Below, in pieces: positions 8,227 to 12,877 of a stretch of DNA of 64,000 nt. Made by a program: the position numbers and the translations under genes. Source of the DNA: Methylocystaceae bacterium (lineage in GTDB: Bacteria; Pseudomonadota; Alphaproteobacteria; Rhizobiales; Beijerinckiaceae); NCBI GenBank assembly GCA_009773555.1, contig WSXZ01000030.1:1-64000 (forward strand), read 5' to 3'. Positions within the stretch are counted from its first letter, which is position 1; every line of letters begins with the position of its first letter. Under the pieces are notes generated by a model. It saw only the letters and a program-made list of their open reading frames with translations. It was not told where the DNA came from and did not search any database.

Positions 8227-9327
<1,101 letters not shown>

Positions 9328-9365: not shown

Positions 9366-9917
9366 TTAGATTGGATCCGGCCCGCGCGAGATGGCGGCGA
9401 CGCCTGTGCGGGAGACCTCGACGAGCCCGATCGGACGCATCAGGTCGATGAATTCATCAATCTTGTGCGGTTTGCCGGTCAATTCGAAAATGAAACTCTC
9501 AGTCGTCGCATCGACGATGCGGGCGCGAAAGGCTTCGGCAAGCTGTAGCGCGAAGGTGCGGTGGTCGCCGCGACCTTTGACTTTGACCATGGCGAGTTCG
9601 CGTTCGAGCGAGCGCATCGACATGGTGAGGTCGGTCACCTGATGCACGGGCACGAGTCGCTCGAGCTGATGATGGATCTGGTCGATCGTCTCCGGCGCGC
9701 CGGAGGTCAATATGGTGATGCGCGAGAGATGTTCGGCGTGGGCGACTTCGGCGACCGTGAGGCTCTCGATATTATAGCCGCGGCCGGAAAACAGGCCGAC
9801 GACGCGCGCCAAGACGCCCGGCTCATTGTCGACGAGCACGGAGAGCGTATGCGACTCGACCTTGGAGTTCGGCGCGGCCGCGGAATAGGGAGATGGCGGA
9901 GAAGCAGGAGCGTTCAT
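9366..9917 (-). CDS. ilvN: Acetolactate synthase small subunit
   Basis: HTLSVLVDNEPGVLARVVGLFSGRGYNIESLTVAEV ACT domain; lies between ilvB and ilvC. Confidence 0.95.
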   Translation of the reverse strand: MNAPASPPSPYSAAAPNSKVESHTLSVLVDNEPGVLARVVGLFSGRGYNIESLTVAEVAHAEHLSRITILTSGAPETIDQIHHQLERLVPVHQVTDLTMSMRSLERELAMVKVKGRGDHRTFALQLAEAFRARIVDATTESFIFELTGKPHKIDEFIDLMRPIGLVEVSRTGVAAISRGPDPI

Positions 9918-9968
9918 TCGGGGCGAATCCAAGCTACAATGTTTAGCCTGTTGCAAGGGCAATCGGCA

Positions 9969-10027
9969 TTAGGCAGTCGGCAGTCGATCTCGCTCCGACT
10001 GCCCATTGCCGACTGCCGACTGCCTAA
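9969..10027. repeat. 18-bp perfect inverted repeat in the ilvB-ilvN gap
   Basis: ttaggcagtcggcagtcg (9969-9986) ... cgactgccgactgcctaa (10010-10027); overlaps the ilvB stop codon. Confidence 0.85.
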
Positions 10028-11802
10028 ACAAGCATCTTGCCTTTTTCGTCGATGACCGCGCCGATCTCTATCCCAGCGTCATCGGAAAGATCGGCGAGCA
10101 GCATGTCGTTATGCGCCTTGCCGGAGGGGATCATCGGGAAGCAATTTTCGACCTTGTCGACGACGCAATCGAAGATCACCGGCCCGTCATAGTCGATCAT
10201 CTCCTGGATCGCGGCGTCGAGCGAGGCGGGATCAGAGCAGCGGATGCCCTTGGCGCCGAACGCTTCGGCAAGCTTGACGAAATCGGGGAGCGCCTCGGAG
10301 TAGCTATGGGAATAGCGCCCGCCATGCAGCAGCTCCTGCCACTGGCGCACCATGCCCATATATTCGTTGTTGAGGATGAAGATCTTCACCGGCAGGCGAT
10401 ATTGGATCGCCGTCGACATTTCCTGAATGCACATCAGAATCGAGGCTTCGCCGGCGATGTCGATCACGAGCGAACCGGGGTGCGCGAGTTGCGCGCCGAT
10501 CGCCGCCGGGAGACCGTAGCCCATGGTGCCGAGTCCGCCCGAGGTCATCCAGCGGTTCGGCTCTTCGAAATGATAATGCTGGGCGGCCCACATCTGATGC
10601 TGCCCGACCTCGGTGGTGACATAGACGTCGCGATCCTTGGTCAGCGCATAGAGCCGCTGCACCGCATGCTGCGGCTTGATCGTGGTTTCCGAATTGCGGA
10701 AGGCCAGCGATCTGCGCGCCCGCCACTCGTTGATCTTCGCCCACCAATGATCGAGCGGCTGTTTGTCGGCGCTCATCGCCTCGGCGCGCCACAGGCGCAC
10801 CATGGCTTCGAGCACATGGGCGCAGTCGCCGACGATGGCGAGATCGACTTTGACGTTCTTGTTGATGGATGAACGATCGATGTCGATGTGGATCTTTTTC
10901 GAGCCCGGCGAAAAGGCGTCGAGACGCCCGGTGATGCGGTCGTCGAAACGCGCGCCGACCGCGATCATCAGATCGCAGTCATGCATGGCGTGATTGGCTT
11001 CCCAGGTGCCGTGCATGCCGAGCATGCCAAGCCAGTTTTCGCCCGACCCCGGATAGGCGCCGAGCCCCATCAGCGTCGAGGTGATGGGAAAGCCCGTCAG
11101 GCTGACGAGTTCGCGCAGCAGCGTCGACGCCGCGGGTCCGGAATTGATGACGCCGCCGCCGGTGTAAAAGATCGGACGCTTCGCCGCCGCCATCATGCGC
11201 ACGGCCTGCTGCATCGCCTCCATGTCGGCGTCGAGCTTGGGATGATAGGTCTTGTGCGCGGCGCTGCGCGGCGGGGCGTAGACGCCGCGCGCAAACTGCA
11301 CGTCCTTGGGGATGTCGATGACCACCGGTCCGGGCCGGCCGGACGACGCCACATAAAAGGCTTCATGCAGCACGCGCGGCAGATCGGCGATGTTCTTGAC
11401 GAGATAATTGTGCTTCGTGCAGTGGCGCGTGATGCCGACCGTGTCGCATTCCTGAAAGGCGTCGGAGCCAATGAGATGCGTCGGCACCTGCCCGGTGATG
11501 CAGACCAGCGGGATCGAATCCATCAACGCGTCGGTGAGGCCCGTCACCGTATTGGTGGCGCCCGGTCCCGAGGTGACGAGCAACACGCCGACCTTGCCCG
11601 AGGAGCGCGCATAGCCCTCCGCGGCATGGGCGGCCCCCTGCTCATGGCGCACGAGAATGTGCTGCACCTTCTCCTGCTGGAAGAGCACGTCGTAGATCGG
11701 AAGGACGGCGCCGCCCGGATAGCCGAAAAGAATCTCCACGCCCTGGTCCTTCAGGGCTTCGACCACCATTTCGGCGCCGGACATTTCCTTCGACATCAGC
11801 AT
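10024..11802 (-). CDS. ilvB: Acetolactate synthase large subunit
   Basis: [40 protein letters not shown]..; TPP-binding motif region ([20 protein letters not shown]); start chosen at ATG 11802 rather than upstream TTG. Confidence 0.95.
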
Positions 11803-11857
11803 TTTCCGTCTTGCTTCTCGCGGCGGGCGACTAGGATGTTTTTTGTCTTCGGGCAAC

Positions 11858-11880
11858 AAAAAAGGCCCTCTTGGGGCCTT
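11858..11880 (-). terminator. Intrinsic terminator / attenuator upstream of ilvB
   Basis: Minus strand AAGGCCC-CAAGA-GGGCCTT followed by TTTT, 7-bp perfect stem, between leader ORF and ilvB. Confidence 0.8.
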
Positions 11881-11909
11881 GGGTCAAGCGCCATTGGCGG
11901 AGGCCGGGC

Positions 11910-11957
11910 CTAGCCCTGCTCCGTCCCCGGCGCTTCAAATACGAGAATTGCGCGCAT
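11910..11957 (-). CDS. ilv leader peptide MRAILVFEAPGTEQG
   Basis: ATG CGC GCA ATT CTC GTA TTT GAA GCG CCG GGG ACG GAG CAG GGC TAG; consecutive Ile-Leu-Val codons 30 nt before a terminator hairpin. Confidence 0.7.
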   Translation of the reverse strand: MRAILVFEAPGTEQG

Positions 11958-12032
11958 TCCGCGTTCCGCCCTTTTGTTCACAGCCGACGTTACGGGAGGC
12001 GGGGCGGAGAATCAAGGGCGGAGAGTGACTCT

Positions 12033-12797
12033 TCAGCGGGCGATCCATCCGCCATCGACGACGAGGAGGTGGCCAACGATGAACCGCGCCTGTTCGGAGC
12101 ACAAGAACAGCACGGCCTCCGTCAGCTCCTCGGCCTTGCCCATCCGCCCGATCGGAAACAGCTTCCCGGCCTGCTCAGGGCTGATGTGCTCCTTCTCCAT
12201 CCATTGGTGGAAGACGTCGCCGGGCGCGTCGATGCCGCAGGCGCAAATGGCGTTGACGCTGATATTGTCCTTGGCGACCTCGAGCGCGACCGTCTTGGTC
12301 AAGCCGTCAACGCCGCCCTTGGAGGCGGCATAGGCGCCTTCCGCGGGATTGCCGGTGAGGCTGCCGGTGATCGACGACTGGTTGACGATGGCGCCGCCGC
12401 CGTTTTGGCGCATCTGGCGGATCTCGTGCTTCATGCAAAAGAACACGCCGCGCAGATTGACGTCGATGTGGAAGTTGAAGCCCTCCTCCGTCTCCTCGAC
12501 GATGGGCTTGAAGCGCACGACGCCGGCGTTGTTCACCGCGCAGTCGAGGCGACCGTACGCCTCGACGGTCTTCGCGACCATGGCTTCGACGTCCCGCTCG
12601 ATCCGCATATCGGCGAGCGTGAAGAGCCCCTCGCCGCCTGCGGCGCGGATCATGTCGAGAGTCTCCCGCCCGCCTGCCTCGTCGAGATCGGCGAGCGCGA
12701 CCCTCGCCCCCTCGCGGGCGAAGGCGAGCGCCGTCACCCGGCCAAGACCTCTCGCCGCGCCGGTGACGAGCGCAACTTTTCCATCAAACCGACCCAT
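12033..12797 (-). CDS. SDR-family oxidoreductase
   Basis: MGRFDGKVALVTGAARGLGRVTALAFAREGARVALADLDE, YAASKGGVDGLTK. Confidence 0.9.
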   Translation of the reverse strand: MGRFDGKVALVTGAARGLGRVTALAFAREGARVALADLDEAGGRETLDMIRAAGGEGLFTLADMRIERDVEAMVAKTVEAYGRLDCAVNNAGVVRFKPIVEETEEGFNFHIDVNLRGVFFCMKHEIRQMRQNGGGAIVNQSSITGSLTGNPAEGAYAASKGGVDGLTKTVALEVAKDNISVNAICACGIDAPGDVFHQWMEKEHISPEQAGKLFPIGRMGKAEELTEAVLFLCSEQARFIVGHLLVVDGGWIAR

Positions 12798-12877
12798 GAA
12801 CCTCTCCCGCGCCTGAGCGGACGCTTTCATCCGCCGCCGTCGCGGTCAAGCTCGTAAGAGGCGATCATTCGAGGCGT

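Follow-up and report, generated by a model that had tools for sequence, protein, structure and literature searches.

A probable ribosome-mediated transcription attenuator ahead of ilvB in a Methylocystaceae bacterium and its relation to the Rfam family RF02502

Transcription attenuators of the trp and his type in enterobacteria combine a leader peptide containing control codons, an RNA structure overlapping its ORF, an intrinsic terminator, and a defined antiterminator. The element described below has the same kind of leader peptide, ORF-overlapping structure, and terminator, whereas no antiterminator was found for it. In alphaproteobacteria, an ilvB leader peptide has already been described (PMC1273637, citing Vitreschak et al. 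2004), as has a cis-regulatory element of ilvIH in S. meliloti (PMC2573895). For Caulobacter, ilvBN has been reported to be attenuated through tandem Ile and Val codons (PMC4117421), and a theoretical treatment of how codons are chosen in attenuators covers, among others, the rare Leu codons of the leu leader (PMC1183508).

Here, we analyzed a stretch of 64,000 nucleotides of contig WSXZ01000030.1 from a Methylocystaceae bacterium (the window). Upstream of its ilvB gene, which encodes the first enzyme common to the pathways that make branched-chain amino acids, we found an element that is very probably a ribosome-mediated transcription attenuator of ilvB (probability about 0.92). Like the alphaproteobacterial ilvB/ilvIH attenuator (Vitreschak et al. 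2004, cited in PMC1273637 and PMC2573895), it has a terminator ahead of the acetolactate synthase genes and a leader peptide with Ile, Leu, and Val codons. The Caulobacter crescentus ilvBN leader likewise has tandem Ile/Val codons and a terminator before ilvBN (PMC4117421); the Caulobacter-type loci that we fetched carry different leader sequences. Attenuators of ilvB and ilvI are thus already known in alphaproteobacteria, and the window element is ordinary in kind. The fresh points are a fixed rare Val codon, the identity with an Rfam sRNA family, and copies at efflux-pump genes in other bacteria.

Leader, hairpin and terminator at ilvB

The features of the locus, in the order of transcription, are as follows.

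12010-12015, minus strand: TTGATT, putative -35 element (CTTGA[C/T] in relatives)
11987-11992, minus strand: TAACGT, putative -10-like element after a 17-nt spacer (most relatives have TA in this position)
11910-11957, minus strand: leader ORF MRAILVFEAPGTEQG, read from the sequence (ATG at 11957, TAG at 11912-11910)
11940-11948, minus strand: regulatory codons ATT CTC GTA (GTA invariant among relatives)
11928-11933, minus strand: arm 1, GCGCCG, within the leader ORF, starting 6 nt past GTA
11894-11927, minus strand: inner stem or stems around the leader stop codon (helices 2 and 3)
11888-11893, minus strand: arm 2, TGGCGC, just before the terminator (helix 1, with arm 1)
11862-11880, minus strand: intrinsic terminator stem-loop AAGGCCC-CAAGA-GGGCCTT (helices 4 and 5), kept in all aligned relatives
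11858-11863, minus strand: terminator U run TTTTTT, invariant in the 30-sequence alignment
10024-11802, minus strand: ilvB, acetolactate synthase large subunit, the putatively controlled gene (NCBIfam PRK09107, 1134 bits, cut-off 974)
9366-9920, minus strand: ilvH, acetolactate synthase small subunit (NCBIfam PRK11895 and TIGR00119, above cut-off)
8227-9246, minus strand: ilvC, ketol-acid reductoisomerase (NCBIfam PRK05479, above cut-off), putatively cotranscribed with ilvBH

The element is flanked by ilvB on one side and by a short-chain dehydrogenase gene (12033-12830) on the other. In the ORF list, the longest ORF for ilvB (10024-11859, minus strand) opens at TTG 11859, which falls within the terminator; ATG 11802 is the likely start codon. 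The IlvB protein shares 96% identity with its counterpart in Methylocystis sp. B8. Transcription is predicted to start near 11980. TTGA[C/T] was aligned in each of the 28 relatives for which the extracted sequence extends that far. The conserved promoter-like elements, which stand at a fixed distance upstream, speak against transcription starting beyond the hairpin.

By DNA search, the region was detected in 39 of the 99 family genomes; all 30 places that were fetched, including that of the window, were at ilvB. In the alignment of these 30 places, the GTA codon and the terminator U run were invariant, and GCGC[C/T] and GGCGC were nearly so. A covariance model built from this alignment matched 98 of the 99 family genomes (93 of 93 well-assembled ones) and, in the wider order, 156 of 249 genomes, so that an unannotated stretch has become a defined regulatory element. 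Of 48 places checked from the order search, 45 adjoin ilvB; the other three comprise two terminator-only matches and locus L182, which is described below. Matches that involved the terminator part of the model only were rejected as attenuators, namely L192 and L193 from the order search and the weak matches L172-L175, which lie at a tRNA gene, upstream of an ilvC, and at other terminators.

The leader ORF has 15 codons and a stop (ATG CGC GCA ATT CTC GTA TTT GAA GCG CCG GGG ACG GAG CAG GGC TAG), and a homologous ORF was present in all 79 distinct relatives. Each of these 79 leaders kept an Ile/Leu/Val run containing GTA, most commonly ILIV (27 leaders). Their stop codons, located at the same place, were TGA in 39, TAG in 26, and TAA in 14; the start codons interchange among ATG, GTG, and TTG, and insertions or deletions in the ORF are multiples of whole codons. 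An earlier note, made from the single sequence, had proposed a leader peptide with consecutive Ile-Leu-Val codons, followed by a terminator with a U run ahead of ilvB (11880-11858), and had recognized in them the architecture of branched-chain attenuation. The codons can be read directly from the DNA, and comparison with relatives, which that note had suggested for the 100-nt region, bore out both parts: the ilv attenuator is the best reading of the leader, the terminator, their position, and their conservation. Conservation in 98 of 99 family genomes, 156 of 249 order genomes, and 79 of 79 leaders places the element far beyond chance.

The regulatory signal looks to be centered on the Val codon GUA instead of being shared evenly among the Ile, Leu, and Val codons. 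In a codon usage sample of five window genes and 80 ilvB genes, GTA accounted for 0 of 143 Val codons in the former and 2.9% of 3567 Val codons in the latter. The distance between the end of GTA and the start of arm 1 was 6 nt in 69 of the 79 distinct leaders. In two genomes of the same genus as the window (L004:1550-1662 and L017:1504-1616, minus strand), the run has lost its Ile and Leu codons and retains GTC GTA. The rarity of GUA, the 6-nt spacing, and the leaders with GTC GTA only together point to a stall at GUA. The footprint of a ribosome extends about 12 nt past the first base of the A-site codon; a ribosome stalled at GUA would therefore just reach arm 1, whereas one stalled at the Ile codon would not.

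The single sequence gave weak evidence for the RNA structure (one terminator found versus 0.8 expected in shuffled sequences, and a fold z-score of -1.69), and the comparison was decisive. Overall, 93.9% of cells in the alignment were paired, and 113 cells carried two-sided changes, versus 31 in shuffles and 12-24 with a slid partner. Since the alignment was fitted to the covariance model, these values are biased toward the structure; the effect size is still far beyond the controls. In the helix of arms 1 and 2, 98.9% of cells were paired, with two-sided changes in five of six pairs. Helices 2 and 3 were paired in 86.8% and 88.1% of cells, respectively, with two-sided changes at every pair. 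The terminator is conserved across relatives, and the changes in it are chiefly one-sided. With arm 1 placed as it is and covarying with arm 2, the predicted RNA structure extends into the leader ORF, where a stalled ribosome could break it. We also observed that [A/G]TTGCCC directly after the U run (11850-11857, minus strand) is strongly conserved in relatives, though it lies beyond the terminator.

Proposed mechanism and the search for an antiterminator

The mechanism that we propose starts from features that are directly supported, namely the conserved ORF, the choice of its codons and their spacing, a hairpin that covaries, a terminator kept among relatives, and the location ahead of ilvB. 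To these it adds a promoter, ribosome stalling, and derepression as conditional steps. Transcription would begin about 25 nt ahead of the leader ORF. When charged Val, Ile, and Leu tRNAs are plentiful, the ribosome would read through AUU-CUC-GUA, reach the stop codon, and depart. The GCGCC:GGCGC hairpin could then fold, with the terminator beside it, and transcription would halt before ilvB. When valyl-tRNA is scarce (or, to a lesser degree, Ile- or Leu-tRNA), the ribosome would stall at the rare GUA and cover the start of arm 1; arm 2 would be freed, the terminator would fail, and ilvB would be made.

For the switch itself, the earlier note had proposed that GGCCT just after the leader stop codon pairs with AGGCC of the 5' arm of the terminator as an antiterminator. 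The complementarity exists, but the pairing is at chance level, the duplex of this middle region with the terminator arm having -10.4 kcal/mol versus -9.8 kcal/mol in shuffled sequences, and it does not covary. The pairing that covaries strongly is a different one, in which GCGCC of the leader ORF forms a predicted hairpin with GGCGC immediately ahead of the terminator. A second candidate, pairing of arm 2 with the 5' arm of the terminator (GGCGCTTG...CAAGGCC), was good in the window and no better than shuffled arm 2 over the 79 relatives; this pairing is lost in many members because their arm 2 is TGACGC. An unbiased scan of column pairs in the alignment gave no third covarying helix, and no covarying stack of columns linked any upstream part with the 5' arm of the terminator. 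In equilibrium folding with the ribosome-covered part masked, the mean probability of the terminator was about 0.92-0.96 whatever the position of the ribosome, with no clear difference between states. As equilibrium folds do not switch, switching would have to be kinetic or to use an element missed here. The sensing half and the terminating half of the attenuator are well supported; the link between the two halves is not.

RF02502 and other readings of the element

No Rfam family was found above threshold in the window. At a lax threshold, RF02502 ('Rhizobiales sRNA Atu_C8') aligned over its full length with the window element (17.1 bits, E 0.68); with a gathering score of 50, the element is related to this family and not a formal member of it. 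In Rhizobiaceae and relatives, RF02502 matched exactly on the ilvB leader with 101-124 bits (L079, L082, L062, L071, L065, L083, L059, and L061, at about 1263-1440), and it was above cut-off in 188 of 200 genomes of a rhizobial family. In one genome of the window's family, RF02502 (E 2.2e-4) and our region model (E 1.5e-16) matched a single place. The two elements share the site before ilvB, the codon run, a GCGC hairpin around the stop codon, and the terminator; in contrast to the window, the Rhizobiaceae leaders mostly have GUG GUG and a longer hairpin, and they are filed in Rfam as sRNA. From the exact position on the ilvB leader and the genome matched by both models, we infer that what Rfam lists as an 'sRNA' is, in Rhizobiaceae, the ilv attenuator, and not, or not only, a trans-acting sRNA.

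The entry as an sRNA family presumably means that a discrete short transcript was observed in Rhizobiaceae, and the trp attenuator of Sinorhizobium, with its products rnTrpL and peTrpL, offers a precedent (PMC10117765, PMC7298713). The terminated leader might therefore also, or instead, act as a small RNA in trans, or its peptide might do so. We consider this improbable, since the conserved parts are those that attenuation in cis needs (codon run, spacing, hairpin, terminator, and position before ilvB), and arms 1 and 2 are engaged with each other.

Control by a bound ligand or protein, in place of the ribosome, would also yield a conserved structured RNA, and the antiterminator candidates, at chance level and without covariation, fit such a riboswitch or protein-binding leader as well. 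Selection nevertheless acts on codons and frame (the invariant GUA, the exchanged start and stop codons, and the codon-sized indels), conservation outside the codon run is mostly in base pairing, and no Rfam riboswitch matched in the window; we give this reading very little credence. It is just as hard to believe that the terminator merely ends the dehydrogenase gene, which is on the same strand about 150 bp away, with the small ORF being incidental, because conservation starts at the promoter-like element between that gene and ilvB and spans the ORF and hairpins, the leader codons are kept, and the hairpin covaries.

Copies of the attenuator at other genes

Beyond ilvB, a ribosome-mediated attenuator of this type appears to have been copied to other genes. 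An RF02502-type element was found before transporters of the Bcr/CflA family of MFS proteins in four genomes (L171:1018-1138; L182:203-322; L199:2308-2428, minus strand; L200:233-353). The ordinary form is also present in the L171 genome, which belongs to the family of the window; the copy at L171 may thus have come from rhizobia by horizontal transfer. We further selected eight plasmid transporter loci by protein similarity alone, blind to RNA, and seven of the eight had an RF02502-type element within about 200 bp upstream. These copies are located as follows.

L206-L211 and L213, about 1317-1472: transporter-linked copies in plasmid loci, directly upstream of Bcr/CflA-family transporters

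The transporter-linked element is present in Rhizobium gallicum, R. lusitanum, R. sp. 007, and R. etli 8C-3, and also in R. sp. BG4, R. etli IE4803, and Phyllobacterium sp.; the transporter locus of Pseudomonas hygromyciniae, one of the eight plasmid loci, does not have it. Among the 11 transporter-linked leaders, of the kind of MKIAMVLVVVIGRMGRMV, nine have the rare codon AUA near the hairpin, after GUG GUG. AUA makes up 2.3% of Ile codons in ilvB genes and was absent from the eight ilvB leaders that were compared.

Our guess is that the pump might export a compound, such as an inhibitor or analogue, by which the cell runs short of charged Val- or Ile-tRNA. We put at even odds the combined proposal that the rhizobial ilv attenuator was recruited to Bcr/CflA exporters, where a lack of charged Val- or Ile-tRNA, caused for example by an inhibitor of a synthetase or of the pathway, would turn the exporter on, with AUA beside the hairpin as an added control codon, and that the single invariant GUA, and not the complete Ile-Leu-Val run, is the main sensor in the family of the window. 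The literature search returned no earlier report of transporter-linked copies, an absence that proves little. With these copies, the placing of a biosynthetic attenuator ahead of a drug-type exporter can be put to the test.

Additional copies were observed at genes of branched-chain amino-acid metabolism. In one family genome, a second copy with the leader MNAILFVKVTPETGQA precedes a branched-chain aminotransferase gene (L170:473-584). In some rhizobia, a second ilvB gene has an attenuator copy of its own (L198, L202, and L204), and one genome has two ilvB genes about 2.7 kb apart, with a copy at each (L179 and L180).
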